From Kibdelosporangium persicum (GTDB lineage: Bacteria; Actinomycetota; Actinomycetes; Mycobacteriales; Pseudonocardiaceae), in the NCBI RefSeq assembly GCF_013280595.1, contig NZ_JAAATY010000058.1, positions 1-37,121 on the forward strand: a stretch of 37,121 nucleotides of DNA, read 5' to 3'. Shown piece after piece: positions 16,998 through 36,954 of the stretch. Every line of letters begins with the position of its first letter. Within the stretch, counting starts at the first letter, position 1. The translations under genes and the position numbers were made by a program. The notes under the pieces were generated by a model. That model ran no database searches and had not been told where the DNA came from. It was given only the letters and a program-made list of their open reading frames with translations.

Positions 16998-17021
16998 CCG
17001 TCTGGGACCACACCCAGACGG
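16998..17021 (+). terminator. terminator after DUF3052
   Basis: A perfect 9-bp stem, CCGTCTGGG with CCCAGACGG, with a 6-base loop lies 16 bases after the DUF3052 stop and before ahpE. Confidence 0.65.
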
Positions 17022-17071
17022 GGCACTAGGCTGGGCGGAAACGGCGGACTCGCATCTGGGAGGACACGGGT

Positions 17072-17533
17072 ATGGCGGTCGAGGTCGGTTCGAAGGCCCC
17101 GGACTTCACGCTCAACGACTACAACAAGCAGCCGGTCACGCTCTCGTCGTTCCAGGGCGAGAAGAACGTGCTGCTGGTGTTCTACCCGTTCGCGTTCAGC
17201 GGCATATGCCAGGGCGAACTGTGCCAGGTGCGGGACGAACTGGCGAACTACAGCGACGCCGACGTCCAGGTCCTCGGCGTGTCCGTGGACAGCCCCTTCG
17301 CCCTCAAGGCGTGGGCCGACCAGCAGGGCTACACCTTCCCCCTGCTGGCGGACTTCTGGCCGCACGGCGAGGTGGCGCAGGCGTACGGCGTGTTCAACGA
17401 CAAGGCAGGCATGGCCCTGCGCGGCACCTTCCTGATCGACAAGGAAGGCACCGTCCGCTTCGCCGCGGTCAACCAGCCAGGCGAACCCCGTGACCAGGAG
17501 GCCTGGAAGAAAGCAGTCGCCGACCTGGCATGA
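17072..17533 (+). CDS. ahpE: AhpE-type one-cysteine peroxiredoxin
   Basis: This 153-residue protein aligns along its length with mycobacterial AhpE. It reduces hydrogen peroxide and organic hydroperoxides in the cytoplasm and is recycled by mycothiol or mycoredoxin-type partners. The peroxidatic site is the P-x-x-x-S-x-x-C motif at 39-46, with Cys46 in SGICQGEL. The FPLLADFWPHG and RGTFLIDKEG segments are also typical. Besides Cys46 there is Cys51 in the same helix (ELCQV), where M. tuberculosis AhpE has no cysteine; this extra residue could influence resolution. The ATG is preceded by GGGAGGA. A TAGGCT -10-like box (17027-17032) lies upstream, but no -35 box is clear. Confidence 0.93.
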   Translation: MAVEVGSKAPDFTLNDYNKQPVTLSSFQGEKNVLLVFYPFAFSGICQGELCQVRDELANYSDADVQVLGVSVDSPFALKAWADQQGYTFPLLADFWPHGEVAQAYGVFNDKAGMALRGTFLIDKEGTVRFAAVNQPGEPRDQEAWKKAVADLA

Positions 17534-17543
17534 TTGTCCTGAC

Positions 17544-17567
17544 CGCGGTGCCCGCCAGGGCACCGCG
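17544..17567 (+). terminator. terminator after ahpE
   Basis: A perfect 10-bp stem (CGCGGTGCCC with GGGCACCGCG) with a GCCA loop lies 10 bases after the ahpE stop and ends 3 bases before the tRNA gene. Confidence 0.75.
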
Positions 17568-17570
17568 CGA

Positions 17571-17642
17571 GGGCGCATAGCTCAGCGGAAGAGCACCTCC
17601 CTTACAAGGAGGGGGTCGCAGGTTCGAACCCTGCTGCGCCCA
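17571..17642 (+). tRNA. tRNA-Val (anticodon UAC)
   Basis: A full cloverleaf can be drawn. The acceptor stem pairs GGGCGCA with TGCGCCC, and the D arm is GCTC...GAGC. The anticodon stem CCTCC/GGAGG holds a CTTACAA loop (anticodon TAC). The T arm GCAGG/CCTGC holds TTCGAAC. The discriminator base is A, and CCA is not encoded. It reads GUA and probably other valine codons. Confidence 0.95.
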
Positions 17643-17650
17643 CGGCCTCA

Positions 17651-17791
17651 GGTCGACCCTGCTCGCGGACTGCGCTTCGCTTGTCCGCTCGCCGGGTCGG
17701 CCGTCTTTATTTTGGGGGGCCGAGCCCCCCAGACCCCCCACGGTGCGGGCTCCGCGCCTTCCAGCGCTGGGCGCTTTGGGCTTGGACCAGC
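17651..17791 (+). repeat. structured intergenic repeat, copy A
   Basis: The conserved core is 84 bp (17708-17791) and matches copy B (20061-20144) at 79 of 84 positions. The core holds a GGGGGGC-CGA-GCCCCCC hairpin, a GGTGCGG/CCGCGCC hairpin and the palindrome CCAGCGCTGG. Just upstream, a two-part stem is unlike copy B in sequence but alike in shape: outer arms GGTCGACCC (17651-17659) and GGGTCGGCC (17694-17702), inner arms GCGGAC and GTCCGC (17665-17670, 17683-17688). It lies between tRNA-Val and the 3' end of the minus-strand pnuC-like gene and may act as a terminator or a structured RNA. Confidence 0.75.
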
Positions 17792-17806
17792 ACTGGGTGC
17801 GTCGGG

Positions 17807-18442
17807 CTAGGTTGTGACGGGTTTGGGGGCCGTTGTCAGGGTGCGCTTGGCGTCGCGGGTCCAGGTGAACCAGCCCCAGATCACCAGGGCCGCGAAGACC
17901 GTGTAGATCAGGGCGCTGAACCACAGGTTCGAGGCGATCTGCAGTGGCACGCCGACCGCGTCCACCGCCAGCCAGACCAGCCAGAACTCGACGAGGCCAC
18001 GGCCCTGCAGGGCGAAGGCCACGACCGTGCCCACGAAGATCGCGGCGTCGGGCCACGGTGCCCAGGAGGCGTTCAGGGCGTCGAGCAGTAGCGCCACGCC
18101 GACTGTGCCGACGACCAGGGCGCCGATGGTCACGAAGACCTCGGTGAGGGTGGAACGGCGGACGACCACGCCGTAGACGGGGTCACGGCGGCGCGTCCAC
18201 GCCCACCACCCGTAGACGCTGATCAGCAGGATGATGACCTGCCGGGACGCCAGGCCGCCGAGGTGCGCCGAGACGTAGACGCTGAACAGCAGCACCGTGG
18301 CCGCGACCTGCACCGGCCACGTCCACAGGGTGCGGTACTTGGCGAGGAACACCACCGCCAAGGCGAAGACCTGGCCGATCAGCTCGGCGTACGAGGTCCA
18401 TTGGCCCAGCACGGTGATGCCGTGCTCCAGAAAGAACCGCAC
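17807..18442 (-). CDS. pnuC: PnuC-family transporter (nicotinamide riboside/vitamin uptake)
   Basis: This 211-residue membrane protein has seven or so hydrophobic helices. It has the PnuC-type ISVYGWWAWTRR motif at about residues 75-86 and WFSALIYTVFAALVIWGWFTW near the C-terminus. PnuC proteins carry nicotinamide riboside by facilitated diffusion, and relatives carry thiamine or riboflavin. The exact substrate cannot be told from sequence. The GTG start follows GGAGG on the minus strand at about 7 bases. It lies 36 bp downstream of ndh on the same strand, so both may share a transcript. That pairing links NAD precursor uptake with an NADH-using enzyme, but this is only suggestive. Confidence 0.82.
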   Translation of the reverse strand: MRFFLEHGITVLGQWTSYAELIGQVFALAVVFLAKYRTLWTWPVQVAATVLLFSVYVSAHLGGLASRQVIILLISVYGWWAWTRRRDPVYGVVVRRSTLTEVFVTIGALVVGTVGVALLLDALNASWAPWPDAAIFVGTVVAFALQGRGLVEFWLVWLAVDAVGVPLQIASNLWFSALIYTVFAALVIWGWFTWTRDAKRTLTTAPKPVTT

Positions 18443-18478
18443 CCGATCCTCCTCACCCGGATTCCCCCAAGAACAGTG

Positions 18479-19801
18479 CTACTGGGTCCGAGTGTTCCGC
18501 GCCAGGGTGTGAGGTGTCTCTCGTACCACTATCTCCCAGTCGCGCCGAGGGTCCTGGATCTGGCCGAGCGACACGATCTCGCGCCGCGACAGCAGCACGG
18601 TCAGCCAGTCGAGCAGAACCCGGAGTTTGCGACCGGCGGTCGGCACCCGGCTCCAGTGGTACGCCCGGTGCATCAGCCAGGCAGGCCAGCCGCGCAACCG
18701 GATCCCGTAGACCTGGGCGACACCCTTGTGCAGGCCGAGGCTGGCCACCGAACCGACGTGCTTGTGCTTGTACGCCTTCAGAGGCTTGCCGCGCAGTGAC
18801 GCGATGATGTTGTCGGCCAGGACTTTCGCCTGCCGCACAGCGTGCTGCGCGCTCGGCGTGCACAGCGCGCCGAGGCCGGTCAGGTCCGGCACGGCCGCGC
18901 TGTCACCCGCGCCCCAGACGTCTTGCAGCCCCTTGGCCTGCAAGGTCTCCGTGCAGATCAGCCTGCCGCGGTAGTCGATCGGCATGCCGGAACGCATCGC
19001 CAGCGGGTTCGCCTTCACCCCGGCGGTCCACACCACGGTGTCGGCGTCATACGACGTCCCGTCCGACAGTTCCACGTGCCCGTCGACCATCGAGACGACC
19101 TTGGTGTTCAACTGGACCCGCATGCCGCGGTCGGTCAGCCTGCGGATCGTGTAGTCCGACATCGCCGGGCTGACCTCCGGCAGGATCCGGTCCGACGCCT
19201 CGACCAGCACCCACCGCATGTCCGAAACCGACAGTCCCTTGTGGACCCGCATGGCGTAGCGGGCCATGTCCTCCAGCTCACCGAAGACCTCGACGCCCGC
19301 GTATCCCCCACCGACCACGACGAACGTCAACGCACGCTGCTTGCGTTCGGGCGTGCTCGACGCGACGTCCAGCCGCGACAACACGTGATTGCGCAAATAG
19401 ATGGCCTCGCCCACGGTCGCGAAACCGATGCCCGCCTCAGCCAGGCCCGGGACCGGCACCGTGCGCGACACCGAACCCGCCGCCATCACAAGAACGTCGT
19501 ACGGCATCGACGTCGGCAGCCCTTCGGCGGGCACGACCGTCGCGACCTTGCGCTCGTGGTCGACCCCGGTGACCCTGCCCGTCACCACAGTGCATTTCGG
19601 CAGCACCCGCCGCAACGGCACCACCACGTGCCGCGGCTCGACCGACCCCGCGGCGGCCTCCGGCAGGAACGGCTGATACGTCATGTTCGGCTGCGGATCG
19701 ACAACCGTCACGGTCGCCTCACCGGCGCGCAGTCTCTTCTGCAAGCGAATGGCGGTGTACATCCCGACATACCCGCCACCGACGATCAGGATGTGAGTCA
19801 T
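18479..19801 (-). CDS. ndh: type II NADH:quinone oxidoreductase
   Basis: This flavoprotein of about 440 residues passes electrons from NADH to menaquinone at the membrane without pumping protons. The first Rossmann motif (GGGYVG, residues 8-13) binds FAD. The second (VVVGGGYAGVEVFGEL) binds NADH. A late D-V-W-G-A-G-D-S-A motif contacts FAD, and a C-terminal amphipathic region (RGWPAWLMHRAYHW) probably docks at the membrane. I chose the ATG at 19801 because the first Rossmann fold then begins at residue 4. The reading frame runs on to 20047 without family resemblance and across the hairpin at 19972. The ribosome-binding site is weak. Confidence 0.92.
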   Translation of the reverse strand: MTHILIVGGGYVGMYTAIRLQKRLRAGEATVTVVDPQPNMTYQPFLPEAAAGSVEPRHVVVPLRRVLPKCTVVTGRVTGVDHERKVATVVPAEGLPTSMPYDVLVMAAGSVSRTVPVPGLAEAGIGFATVGEAIYLRNHVLSRLDVASSTPERKQRALTFVVVGGGYAGVEVFGELEDMARYAMRVHKGLSVSDMRWVLVEASDRILPEVSPAMSDYTIRRLTDRGMRVQLNTKVVSMVDGHVELSDGTSYDADTVVWTAGVKANPLAMRSGMPIDYRGRLICTETLQAKGLQDVWGAGDSAAVPDLTGLGALCTPSAQHAVRQAKVLADNIIASLRGKPLKAYKHKHVGSVASLGLHKGVAQVYGIRLRGWPAWLMHRAYHWSRVPTAGRKLRVLLDWLTVLLSRREIVSLGQIQDPRRDWEIVVRETPHTLARNTRTQ

Positions 19802-19971
19802 ACCCCGAGCCTGACGCGGCGGACGGGAAAAGACCTCACCAGAGCGACCCGGGCGACTCCCTCCCCAGCGGGAGACACACCCAGGACCTACGTCCCACGA
19901 TAGGGGGACAACGGTGGCGCGTCGATCAAGGAAAGTCCATAGTGGATCTACCGGTGGGGACCGGGGAGAAA

Positions 19972-20012
19972 GGCCCCCTGGAGTGCAGCGCACCACTACA
20001 CTCCAGGGGGCC
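19972..20012. terminator. strong hairpin without an obvious gene in front
   Basis: A perfect 14-bp stem, GGCCCCCTGGAGTG (19972-19985) with CACTCCAGGGGGCC (19999-20012), encloses a 13-base loop. It looks like a terminator, yet no plus-strand gene ends before it, and ndh starts away from it. It may end a small RNA or serve as a barrier upstream of fasR. Its last four bases also form the start of the GGCCATTG arm in repeat copy B. Confidence 0.5.
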
Positions 20013-20144
20013 ATTGACTTCGGTGCTTCGCTTCGCACCTTCGCCAATGGCCTGTCGTCCTATTTTGGGGGGCCGAGCCCCCCATACCCCCCACGGTGCG
20101 AGCTCCGCACCTTCCAGCGCTGGGCGCGTTGGGCTTTGACCAGC
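20009..20144 (+). repeat. structured intergenic repeat, copy B
   Basis: The core (20061-20144) matches copy A (17708-17791) at 79 of 84 positions, in the same orientation. The upstream stem uses other sequence: outer arms GGCCATTG (20009-20016) and CAATGGCC (20045-20052), inner arms GGTGC (20022-20026) and GCACC (20035-20039). In the core, the change from GCGCC to GCACC turns the G-T pair of copy A into an A-T pair. It sits about 180 bp upstream of fasR. Confidence 0.75.
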
Positions 20145-20321
20145 GACCTTCCTCCCGCTTGCGTAGAGGGTTGGAATTTCACCAGCACCTGTTCTGTGGG
20201 GCTTTGACCAGCGACTGTTTCTTCCTGTTGCGTTGGGGTGGTGGGGTTTCACCGACGACTTTCCCTTGTCCTCGCGTTGGGGGGTCGCGGCTGGGCTTCC
20301 TGGCCGTGTCAAGCTGGGAGG

Positions 20322-21530
20322 GTGAGAGCAGGGGCCGTTTCGGCTAAGACGCTGGCTGAGTTGGAACGGGCTTCCGGCAAGCTGGCTTCGGCCACTTTGG
20401 CCGCGATGGACTCGCAGTTCCCGTGGTTCAGCCGGATGCCCGCCGACCAGCGGGCCAGCGTGCTGTTGATCGCGCAGTCCGGCGTGGCCGGGTTCACCGC
20501 GTGGCTCAAGGACGAGACCGCGTCGCTGCGACTGACCACCGACGTCTTCCGCGCCGCCCCCCGTGACCTGTCGCGGTGGATCAGCCTGCGGCAGACCGTC
20601 GAACTGGTCCGCGTCGCCTTGCAGGTCTTCGAAGGACAGGTGCCGGACCTCGCGGCCGACGACACCGAACGCGCGATCCTCGGCGAAGCGGTCCTGCGCT
20701 ACGGCCGGGAAGTCGCGTTCGCCTCCGCGATGTCGTACGCCTCCGCCGCCGAGACCCGAGGTGCCTGGGACGCACGCCTTGAAGCCCTGGTCGTCGACGG
20801 GATCGTCCGTGGTGACGCCGAAGAGGCCCTGCTTTCGCGCGCTGCCGCGCTGGGGTGGGACCCGGCGGCGGAAGCGACCGTTGTGGTCGGCAACCGGCCG
20901 TCCGACGACCCGCCGACGGTCGTCTACGAGGTCCGTAGCCGTGCCGCGCGTCTCGGGCGTGCGGTGCTGTTGAGCGTGCAAGGGACCCGGCTGGTGGTGG
21001 TTCTCGCTGGCCCGACCGACGACCTGGTCGGTGAGGAACGTCGTGGGCGTGCGCCGAGCAAGGCCGTGCTTGACCGGATCACCGCCGCCTTCGGCGACGG
21101 GCCCGTGGTCGCGGGACCGACGGTGGCGAGCCTGGCTGAGGCGCATCGCAGTGCCGCGGACGCGCTGTCGGGGCTACGGGCCGTGGTCGGGTGGCCCGCG
21201 GCGCCCAGGCCCGTCCGGTCGACGGATCTGCTGCCGGAACGGGCGCTGGCCGGAGACCCCGAGGCGGAGTGGCAGCTGGTCGACCGGATCGCCCGGCCGC
21301 TGGAGGACGCGAGCGGGTCGCTGCTGGAGACGGTGGACACGTACCTTGAGGTGGGCGGCGTGCTGGAGACGTGCGCGCGGCAGTTGTTCGTGCATCCGAA
21401 CACGGTCCGCTACCGGCTGCGCCGGGTCGCCGAGCTCACCGGCCGCAACGCCAACGACCCGCGTGACTCTCTGGTGCTCCGCGTGGCTCTCGCCGTGGGC
21501 CGGTTGGCGCGGGCGAGGGGGTTGTGGTGA
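20322..21530 (+). CDS. fasR: PucR-type regulator of fatty acid synthesis (FasR/MabR-like)
   Basis: This protein has about 402 residues. The C-terminus has the PucR helix-turn-helix (ETCARQLFVHPNTVRYRLRR), preceded by a GGDEF-like domain. In Streptomyces FasR and in mycobacteria MabR, PucR-type proteins encoded directly before fabD control the fabD operon, as the position suggests here. The candidate operator is the TTTGTAG-N5-CTACAAA palindrome at 21615-21633. The start is uncertain. GTG at 20322 lies directly against GGGAGG, too close for good use of that site, but no better in-frame start is visible before 20408. The stop is 161 bp upstream of fabD. Confidence 0.87.
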   Translation: MRAGAVSAKTLAELERASGKLASATLAAMDSQFPWFSRMPADQRASVLLIAQSGVAGFTAWLKDETASLRLTTDVFRAAPRDLSRWISLRQTVELVRVALQVFEGQVPDLAADDTERAILGEAVLRYGREVAFASAMSYASAAETRGAWDARLEALVVDGIVRGDAEEALLSRAAALGWDPAAEATVVVGNRPSDDPPTVVYEVRSRAARLGRAVLLSVQGTRLVVVLAGPTDDLVGEERRGRAPSKAVLDRITAAFGDGPVVAGPTVASLAEAHRSAADALSGLRAVVGWPAAPRPVRSTDLLPERALAGDPEAEWQLVDRIARPLEDASGSLLETVDTYLEVGGVLETCARQLFVHPNTVRYRLRRVAELTGRNANDPRDSLVLRVALAVGRLARARGLW

Positions 21531-26384: not shown

Positions 26385-27848
26385 ATGAGTGTCCGCCTGG
26401 GCGCGCGGGACGTCTCACGTGCGTTCGGTCCCGTGCGCGCCAACGAAGGCGTCAGCGTCGAGATCCGGGCGGGCACAGTGCACGCGGTCGTCGGCGAGAA
26501 CGGCGCGGGGAAGACGACCCTCATGCGTATCCTCTACGGGCTTGACCAGCCGGACTCGGGCACAGTCGTGATCAACGACCAGCCGGTGCGGCTGCGTGGT
26601 CCCGCGGACGGCATCGGGCACGGAATCGGCCTGGTGCCCCAGGAACTGGCGATGATCGGGTCGTTGACCCTGCTGGAGAACCTGGTCCTGGGCACGGAAC
26701 CACGCAGCGGCCCGCGGATCGACTGGGCCAGGGCGCGCGGGGAAGCCGAGGAGCTGGCGTCCCGGGTGGGCGTCGAGCTGCCGTGGACGGCTTTGGCGGA
26801 CAACGTGTCCATCAGCGTCCGGCAGCAGGTCGAGATCCTGCGGGCGTTGCGGCGCGGCGCGGACGTGCTGATCCTCGACGAACCCACCGCCGCGCTGGCG
26901 CCCGCGCAGGTCGACGACCTGTTGCGGCTGTTGCGTGGCCTGCGGGAAGCCGGCCGCACAGTCGTTTTCATCAGCCACAAAGTCGACGAAGTGCTCGCAG
27001 TCGCCGACGAGATCACGGTCCTGCGTGGCGGCAAGGTGATCACCACGCGGCCGGTGGGCGACCTGGACCGCACGTCGTTGATCGAGCTGATCGTCGGCCA
27101 GCAGGTGGGATTCACCGGATTCGTGCCGTCCGCCGTGACCGGCGACGAAGTGCTGACGGTCGCCGGCTCGGTCTCGTTGTCCGTGCGCGCCGGGGAGATC
27201 GTCGGCGTGGCCGGGATCGCGGGCAGCGGGCAGGACGAACTCGTCGAGCGGGTCGTCGGCCTGCGGCCGCCCGACGGCCGGATCACCCTGGCGGGCCAGG
27301 ACATCAGCACCCTGCCGGTGGACCGGCGACGAGCGGCCGGGCTCGGGTACATCTCCGGTGACCGCAGGTCGGAGGGCCTGTCGATGGACGCGTCCCTGGC
27401 GGACAACACGATCGCGGGCACACACCGGACGCTCGGCCGCCACGGCTGGCTGAAACCATCGGCGGTCCGCGCGTACGCCAAACGGGTGCTCGACGGTTAC
27501 TCCGTCCGATATGGACGGACGACCGCGGTCGCCCGCACGTTGTCGGGCGGCAACCAGCAACGGGTGGTGATCGGACGTGAACTGGACCGCGACCCCAAGC
27601 TGCTGGTGGCCGCCGGGCCGACCCGCGGCGTCGACGTGCTCGGCATGACCTACATCCACGACAAGCTCAGGGCGTTGCGCGACAACGGATCCGGCGTGCT
27701 TCTGGTGTCCGAGCAACTCGACGAGCTGCTGGACCTGTCCGACCGGATCATCGTCCTGCACGGCGGCCGAGTCGCCGGTGAGGTCCCCGGCGGCCCCGCA
27801 AGCCGAACCGCCATCGGCACCCTCATGCTCGGCAGGACCCCCTCGTGA
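26385..27848 (+). CDS. nucleoside ABC transporter ATP-binding protein (two domains)
   Basis: This 487-residue tandem ATPase belongs to the sugar/nucleoside (RbsA-like) class. Domain 1 has a good Walker A (GENGAGKTT, about 38-46) and Walker B (VLILDEPTAAL), but its signature reads VSISVRQQ instead of LSxGxQQ. Domain 2 has the signature LSGGNQQR, but its P-loop is degenerate (GIAGSGQDEL, no lysine). That asymmetry is normal for this class, so only one composite site is fully active. The ATG follows the lipoprotein gene by 7 bp. The stop codon TGA lies inside a 46-bp palindromic repeat and overlaps the permease start. Confidence 0.92.
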   Translation: MSVRLGARDVSRAFGPVRANEGVSVEIRAGTVHAVVGENGAGKTTLMRILYGLDQPDSGTVVINDQPVRLRGPADGIGHGIGLVPQELAMIGSLTLLENLVLGTEPRSGPRIDWARARGEAEELASRVGVELPWTALADNVSISVRQQVEILRALRRGADVLILDEPTAALAPAQVDDLLRLLRGLREAGRTVVFISHKVDEVLAVADEITVLRGGKVITTRPVGDLDRTSLIELIVGQQVGFTGFVPSAVTGDEVLTVAGSVSLSVRAGEIVGVAGIAGSGQDELVERVVGLRPPDGRITLAGQDISTLPVDRRRAAGLGYISGDRRSEGLSMDASLADNTIAGTHRTLGRHGWLKPSAVRAYAKRVLDGYSVRYGRTTAVARTLSGGNQQRVVIGRELDRDPKLLVAAGPTRGVDVLGMTYIHDKLRALRDNGSGVLLVSEQLDELLDLSDRIIVLHGGRVAGEVPGGPASRTAIGTLMLGRTPS

Positions 27849-27887
27849 GTGTTTGTCCGCGTTCTAACCCTGATAAGTACTCACGAG
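27842..27887. repeat. 46-bp palindromic repeat, copy 1 (inside the operon)
   Basis: The ends are an inverted pair: CTCGTGAGTG at the left and TACTCACGAG at the right. It matches copy 2 (36909-36954) at 37 of 46 positions with equal length. It contains the ATPase stop (TGA, 27846-27848), the permease GTG start (27845) and the first 14 permease codons. Confidence 0.7.
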
Positions 27888-36902: not shown

Positions 36903-36908
36903 CCTTCC

Positions 36909-36954
36909 CTCGTGAGTGTTTATCCGGGTTAGAACACGGTTAAACACTCACGAG
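36909..36954. repeat. 46-bp palindromic repeat, copy 2
   Basis: The left end is CTCGTGAGTGTTTA and the right end TTAAACACTCACGAG; together they form a long hairpin. It matches copy 1 (27842-27887) at 37 of 46 positions, with the outer 13 left bases and the last 10 right bases identical. It lies between the amidase gene and the rRNA terminator, where it could end amidase transcription. Confidence 0.75.

Follow-up and report, generated by a model that had tools for sequence, protein, structure and literature searches.

A covarying two-hairpin element behind tRNA and other stable-RNA genes of Kibdelosporangium persicum and related actinobacteria, a candidate transcript-end module

To our knowledge, the end of transcription of transfer RNA (tRNA) and other stable-RNA genes in high-GC actinobacteria is poorly described. 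Gardner et al. 2011 (RNIE) are said to have defined TRIT, a covariance-model terminator family for M. tuberculosis, and a lineage-specific terminator family under a covariance model would be the likeness between TRIT and the element treated here. Repetitive extragenic palindromic (REP) and other dispersed palindromic repeats likewise have many extragenic copies 3' of genes that are homogenised within a genome. In intrinsic terminators, as in the element, a GC-rich hairpin precedes a U-rich stretch where the transcript ends. Tandem or clustered hairpin terminators resemble it in having two adjacent hairpins at the transcript end with a weak or absent U-tract (PMC8355165), and the I-shaped terminators of GC-rich genomes in having a weak or absent U-tract there (PMC8269248). 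The Streptomyces clavuligerus 3'-end map in the latter counts 353 highly structured ends without a U-rich tract and 182 with one, so an unusual terminator in this lineage would be unsurprising. Here we describe a two-hairpin element that occurs twice (copies A and B) in a 37,121-nt contig of Kibdelosporangium persicum (NZ_JAAATY010000058.1, the whole of which is called the window), and that recurs, in a fixed orientation, behind stable-RNA genes of Pseudonocardiaceae.

The element runs in a constant order from hairpin 1, a two-part stem with a pyrimidine internal loop and covarying arms, through a T-rich spacer of ~11 nt to hairpin 2, which has a second C run and reads G(n)-CCGAG or CGA-C(n)-NNN-C(n) (mostly written here with CCGAG), and then to a genome-specific tail. 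Its position, orientation, structure, covariation, conservation and gene linkage are direct observations, set out below. The element probably serves stable-RNA units as a composite terminator or 3'-end module, and it also stands behind some mRNAs. The parts of the two copies in the window, and the RNA gene ahead of copy A, are as follows.

17571..17643, + strand: tRNA-Val(tac), the RNA gene ahead of copy A (ARAGORN; Rfam RF00005, 72.7 bits).
17651..17702, + strand: copy A hairpin 1, a two-part stem with outer arms GGTCGACCC/GGGTCGGCC, internal loop TC/TC and an inner stem (fold of -35 kcal/mol, z-score -5.4; covariation in 84 aligned matches without model seeds).
17703..17713, + strand: copy A T-rich spacer GTCTTTATTTT (direct reading of the sequence).
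17714..17739, + strand: copy A hairpin 2 and second C run, G6-CCGAG-C6-AGA-C6 (pattern match C58:17715-17738).
17740..17791, + strand: copy A tail, ACGGTGCG..CCAGCGCTGG..GGACCAGC (repeat D1).
20009..20052, + strand: copy B hairpin 1, outer stem GGCCATTG/CAATGGCC (fold of -20.6 kcal/mol, z-score -4.7; 44 bits with covariance model R1).
20053..20066, + strand: copy B spacer TGTCGTCCTATTTT (direct reading of the sequence).
20067..20092, + strand: copy B hairpin 2 and second C run, G6-CCGAG-C6-ATA-C6 (pattern match C58:20068-20091).
20093..20144, + strand: copy B tail (repeat D1).

The two 84-bp cores (17708-17791 and 20061-20144) form a direct repeat with 94% identity (D1), the longest among seven direct-repeat families in the window at the settings used, confirming the near-identity that a first-pass annotation had reported. 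The same annotation described the stretches upstream of the cores as two-part stems of differing sequence, and both fold as it described: taken alone, each hairpin 1 reaches the energy listed above, which none of 200 shuffles equalled in either copy. Folds of the whole element give milder z-scores (-3.5 for copy A, -2.6 for copy B), and the reverse strands fold too (z-scores -2.0 and -3.4), so the strand is not assignable from folding alone. The annotation further took a G-T to A-T change inside the core as a preserved pair. The change is real (GGTGCG..CGCGCC in one copy, GGTGCG..CGCACC in the other), but the third stem to which it belongs is broken in other copies, for example as GGTGCG..CTTACC; this stem is rejected as a conserved structure, and the change is therefore no evidence for one.

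Within the 10.35-Mb genome, a BLAST search with copy A returns at least 32 matches, a lower bound with 40 of 69 first-look candidates scored, and tRNA 3' ends precede many of them in the flanks. The signature G5-N3-5-C5-N2-4-C5 occurs 32 times, at 30 distinct sites, compared with no occurrence in this genome of the signature read backwards or with its extra C run moved to the 5' side, and is thus far beyond chance. By our reading, 19 of the 30 sites lie directly or in tandem behind a tRNA or transfer-messenger RNA (tmRNA) gene; one follows a signal recognition particle (SRP) RNA at ~130 nt (locus L014), one follows a tRNA-His 3' fragment, two at a contig start resemble a tRNA-Lys array, and seven, copy B included, are away from known stable RNAs or fragments. 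Tandem units of a hairpin with G, C and C runs were seen at L066 (C9:240983), L065 (C34:18037), L008 (C2:376786) and L016 (C9:152752), behind tRNA-Ser and tRNA-Leu genes and at one place without a known RNA.

Viewed from the tRNA genes, hairpin 1 and a G5-6/C5 hairpin follow within 95 nt at 17 of 68 entries called by ARAGORN over the fetched tRNA regions (64 tRNAs by Rfam; one or two entries are doubtful). The carriers are the tmRNA and tRNAs for Ala (2), Glu, Ile, Leu, Lys, Met (4), Phe, Pro, Ser (2), Tyr and Val. Because 21 of the 51 non-carriers have another tRNA within 160 nt, the element stands at 17 of 47 likely unit ends. The 30 tRNA ends with neither the core nor a following tRNA bear a stem of at least 8 pairs in 28 cases and none in two.

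Linkage on the same strand holds in other genomes. An exact 21-base core pattern gives 77 matches in 76 stretches of the genome collection, a search from which records very near the window's genome were possibly left out, and 48 of the 77 lie directly behind a tRNA or tmRNA on the same strand, compared with 0 of 77 for each of the three remaining arrangements when 120 nt are inspected for a tRNA; four of the other 29 follow a tRNA 3' half. The genera concerned belong to Pseudonocardiaceae, apart from records labelled Rhodococcus rhodnii (NRRL B-16535, JOAA01000003.1 and related; L109 and others), whose label looks wrong, as they appear to correspond to G003, a Kibdelosporangium-like genome of the window's own genus. 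A covariance-model search of the kind suggested by the first-pass annotation (model R1) finds the element in 48 of 120 Pseudonocardiaceae genomes, representing 21 of 46 genera, and in 14 of 196 other genomes of the class; these surveys used stricter filters, with weak matches lost. R1 returned 30 loci from the family, one for each genome and counting that of the window, and 18 from other families of the class; of these, 26 and 15, respectively, are directly behind a tRNA or tmRNA. A model of hairpin 1 only (R2) matches 13 of the 196 other class genomes; of its 25 returned loci outside the window's genome, 15 stand directly behind a tRNA or tmRNA, one is in tandem behind a tRNA (L317), two are apparently in a tmRNA array (L289, L314) and seven, several of them weak matches, are not linked.

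SRP RNA precedes copies at L152, L178 and L014. Copies also stand behind protein genes, namely those for alanine dehydrogenase (L142, L023), rsmE (L110) and a SigB-type sigma factor (L167; names by NCBIfam), with stop codons 211-342 nt upstream. Rfam detects tRNA, SRP RNA, a glycine riboswitch and 6C RNA at 36 further loci, the latter two not adjacent to the element. A looser class-wide G5/C5/C5 pattern is noisy, several genomes being high in the control counts as well. In class family f33, G5-loop-C5-NNN-C5 gives 148 matches and its backward control 12 (10 listed genomes; tRNA context unchecked).

Hairpin 1 covaries strongly across these copies. In 84 R1 matches (E up to 1e-5, seed loci left out), standard pairs fill 95.2% of its paired alignment cells, compared with 74.5% after shuffling and 43-68% when slid, and double-change cells number 337 compared with 80.8 after shuffling, figures that are inflated because the alignments are fitted to the model and that come from related sequences. 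A first count over 120 matches, including nine seeds and a few weak antisense matches, gave 94.2% compared with 74.2%. The seeds (A5) were picked for pairing and the TC loop, which biases results from them upward; they were kept gapless because MAFFT over 22 copies scrambled the stems. On the element's strand, G-U pairs are frequent in the outer stem. Hairpin 2, by comparison, is almost invariant, with five of seven pairs never varying, and it yields no covariation evidence since it hardly varies. The many copies and the strong compensatory change in hairpin 1 support the first-pass proposal of selection on RNA structure.

Three further features recur. In independent folds, 47 of 76 core-selected copies show a small internal loop whose 5' side ends in TC (mostly TC/TC or TC/TTC) and 29 do not, compared with 1 of 51 tRNA ends lacking the core and 11 of 380 shuffles. 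In the best 98 of 120 aligned rows, the mean spacer length is 11.2 nt and the T content 59%, with TTTT present in the search pattern and in R1; the spacer up to the G run measures 11 nt in 67 of those rows. The G, C and second C runs are all equal in length in 66% of 158 copies; the two C runs agree in 71% of these, compared with 48% on average and at most 59% under permutation, a comparison that is uncorrected for descent and covers the loop types we listed.

The two halves of the element appear to have separate histories. tRNA-Val(tac) carries the element in six genomes of two genera (the window's genome, G002, G003, G004, G007 and Streptoalloteichus tenebrarius, G008), with differing hairpins 1 and similar cores; the element is missing behind the same tRNA in several other genera. 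For G001, G005 and G006, the match starts within tRNA-Val and is 18 to 81 kb away from the intact tRNA, a displacement that suggests to us the insertion of islands at the 3' end of the tRNA. At L021 (G000 C8:106060), a tRNA-His 3' fragment bears an element, and the intact tRNA-His lies at C8:78105, again as if an island had integrated there and carried the element off. Similarity was compared across 42 RNA-linked copies from seven genomes (nine of them, those with the exact core, from the window's genome), leaving aside unlinked copies and copies close to a locus end. For hairpin 1, a shared RNA type goes with higher similarity (same-minus-different 0.100; permutations reach at most 0.059), and a shared genome does not (0.008). 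For the tail, a shared genome goes with higher similarity (0.064; at most 0.031 in 300 permutations), and a shared RNA type does not (0.002). Hairpin 1 therefore stays with its gene, and the tail is homogenised within the genome: core and tail behave as a dispersed repeat, and hairpin 1 is passed on together with the RNA gene that it follows.

These observations bear on what the element does. In the transcript-end reading, RNA polymerase that has passed a tRNA, tmRNA or SRP RNA gene, or one of certain other units, would transcribe hairpin 1 and then the U-rich stretch, and might come off there in the manner of intrinsic termination. Hairpin 2, which follows at once and whose G(n)/C(n) stem is very stable, would provide a second stop, and/or the pair of hairpins would fix and protect the 3' end before the tRNA is matured there; the second C run, which tends to be as long as the stem, could be a second pairing partner or third strand. 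We infer both termination and this division of labour between the hairpins. The reading is favoured because the element has a strand-fixed place behind stable RNAs, a U-rich gap and copies behind protein genes, and because other tRNA ends carry hairpins in the same position. The constant orientation 3' of RNA genes and the conservation across species and genera agree with the dispersed terminator or transcript-end element that the first-pass annotation had among its suggestions. Its other suggestion, a small RNA family, fared otherwise: a trans-acting family is rejected because the copies flank a range of RNA genes on the 3' side, hairpin 1 differing from gene to gene, and a scan for sigma-70-type promoters, which does not cover other promoter types, found none at 17000-20500. 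Recent duplication within one strain, which that annotation had named as a way to fail along with upstream stems lacking compensatory changes, is ruled out by copies in other species and genera, and the stems of other copies do covary. It had overlooked the tRNA-Val gene, the linkage to tRNA, tmRNA and SRP RNA, the second C run and the conserved RNA before copy B.

Several observations weigh against a transcript-end module. The T run begins several bases past the stem, a wider gap than textbook intrinsic terminators show; a consensus terminator scan called none at copy A or copy B; and C, not U, follows hairpin 2. The T content of the spacer is partly selected, since TTTT was in the pattern that supplied the named loci and in R1. 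Only eight of the 28 stem-bearing tRNA ends without the core have at least four T in the next 10 bases, which weakens the comparison with plain U-tract terminators. The homogenised tails and tandem copies would also fit a repeat that merely settles behind terminators.

A more specific proposal, conceivable but unlikely, is a distinct actinobacterial stable-RNA 3'-end module with a factor-read UC/UUC loop, a C-G-C triplex or partner-switching second C run, and concerted evolution. Here the second C run, equal in length to the stem strands (4/4/4, 5/5/5, 6/6/6), would lie parallel to the G strand, and the module would be uniform across dozens of loci, each RNA gene keeping its own covarying hairpin 1.

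It is also conceivable, if unlikely, that the element serves RNA processing or stability. Transcription would then end further on, at Rho or in the tail, and the AU-rich gap between the hairpins would be a ribonuclease cut site setting the 3' end of pre-tRNA, pre-tmRNA and pre-SRP RNA. The linked RNAs undergo 3' processing, the AU-rich gap is flanked by two strong stems, and the pyrimidine internal loop is kept in 47 of 76 copies, far more often than in coreless tRNA ends and shuffles. Copies behind protein genes, however, require no such maturation, and 28 of 30 tRNA ends without the element carry another hairpin at the same place.

We consider it similarly unlikely that the element is mainly a selfish or passive dispersed repeat, similar to REP or miniature inverted-repeat transposable elements (MITEs), that inserts or converts beside terminators, with hairpin 1 as the old terminator and core plus tail as the repeat. 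The division found above, with tails following the genome and hairpin 1 the RNA type, is what this would produce, and the tandem copies and the seven own-genome sites away from known stable RNAs or fragments point the same way. The same places are nevertheless kept across species and genera, those of tRNA-Val and copy B being kept in the genus (transposases and target duplications were not searched for), and the core and the TC-loop hairpin 1 co-occur. Very improbable is a DNA-level element for protein binding, a barrier or recombination at tRNA genes: the perfect palindrome CCAGCGCTGG in many tails of this genome, the likeness of tRNA ends to island attachment sites (displaced tRNA 3' fragments in G001, G005 and G006) and the nearly equal folding of the reverse strands would suit it, but the palindrome is often absent from tails of other genera, and strand-fixed 3' placement with arm-by-arm covariation and many G-U pairs points to RNA.

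In the window, hairpin 1 of copy A starts 7 nt past the end of tRNA-Val(tac), and the copy ends ahead of the stop of a convergent nicotinamide mononucleotide (NMN) transporter gene (Pfam PF04973). Copy B has a pyridine-nucleotide oxidoreductase gene (- strand) to one side and a PucR-type regulator gene (+ strand; Pfam HTH_30), possibly FasR, to the other. Ahead of copy B, and upstream of the PucR-type gene, lies a further conserved feature.

19896..20012, + strand: conserved unannotated leader or small RNA before copy B (alignment of 8 genomes).

It contains CACGATAGGGGGACA and CCATAGTGG boxes and a CCGGTGGGGACCGG hairpin, and its terminal part is a covarying stem of 14 bp (19972-20012), which has GGCC in common with copy B hairpin 1. 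The stretch 19884-20016 was matched in 89 of 150 family genomes, and 19932-20016 folds at -46 kcal/mol (z-score -4.8). Compensatory changes in the terminal stem include GTG/CAC to GCG/CGC (G001, G002), GGCCCCC/GGGGGCC to GGCCTCC/GGAGGCC (G003) and to GGCCCTC/GAGGGCC (G006, G007). Copy B is orthologous within the genus and present in all eight genus genomes, altered in two (G001, G006). A PucR-type homologue lies within 27 of 30 fetched loci, and a copy-B-like element follows the terminal stem in 17 of the 30 and not in 13 (by eye, with ~190 nt shown). The RNA has no Rfam match above cut-off and could be either a free small RNA or an attenuator-bearing leader of the PucR-type gene. Elsewhere in the window, a second repeated palindrome (27840-27887 and 36907-36954, 81% identical) has ends CTCGTGAGTGTTT.. 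and ..ACTCACGAG; the copy at 36907 sits immediately 3' of the minus-strand 5S rRNA gene.

For the high-GC actinobacterial end of tRNA and stable-RNA transcription, a searchable covarying module offers a handle that predicts transcript ends and can flag unannotated RNAs, as ahead of copy B. With hairpin 1 bound to its locus and the tail homogenised by genome, this putative regulatory repeat also illustrates concerted evolution cleanly.

Rfam matches only 5S rRNA and the tRNA in the whole window and, at 17560-20200 with E up to 5, the tRNA plus three other families below cut-offs; no description of the element was found in the literature searched, a search outside which most subscription papers lie, and the matching C run and the pyrimidine loop are features that we have not seen described there. 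As in intrinsic terminators, a stable GC-rich hairpin stands at the unit end (z-scores -5.4 and -4.7; 48 of 77 copies 3' of a tRNA or tmRNA). Unlike those, the element has its U-rich stretch offset from the stem, a second G/C hairpin and an extra C run at once behind, and a conserved pyrimidine internal loop and core sequence. With REP repeats and MITEs it shares many near-identical extragenic copies in a genome (at least 32 BLAST matches; 30 signature sites), and it differs from REP repeats in being strand-fixed behind tRNA, tmRNA and SRP RNA with orthologous places kept across genera. From tandem and clustered terminators it is set apart by sequence conservation, near-fixed spacing and a tie mainly to stable-RNA genes. 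By analogy, the element may work like tandem or sequence-conserved terminators.

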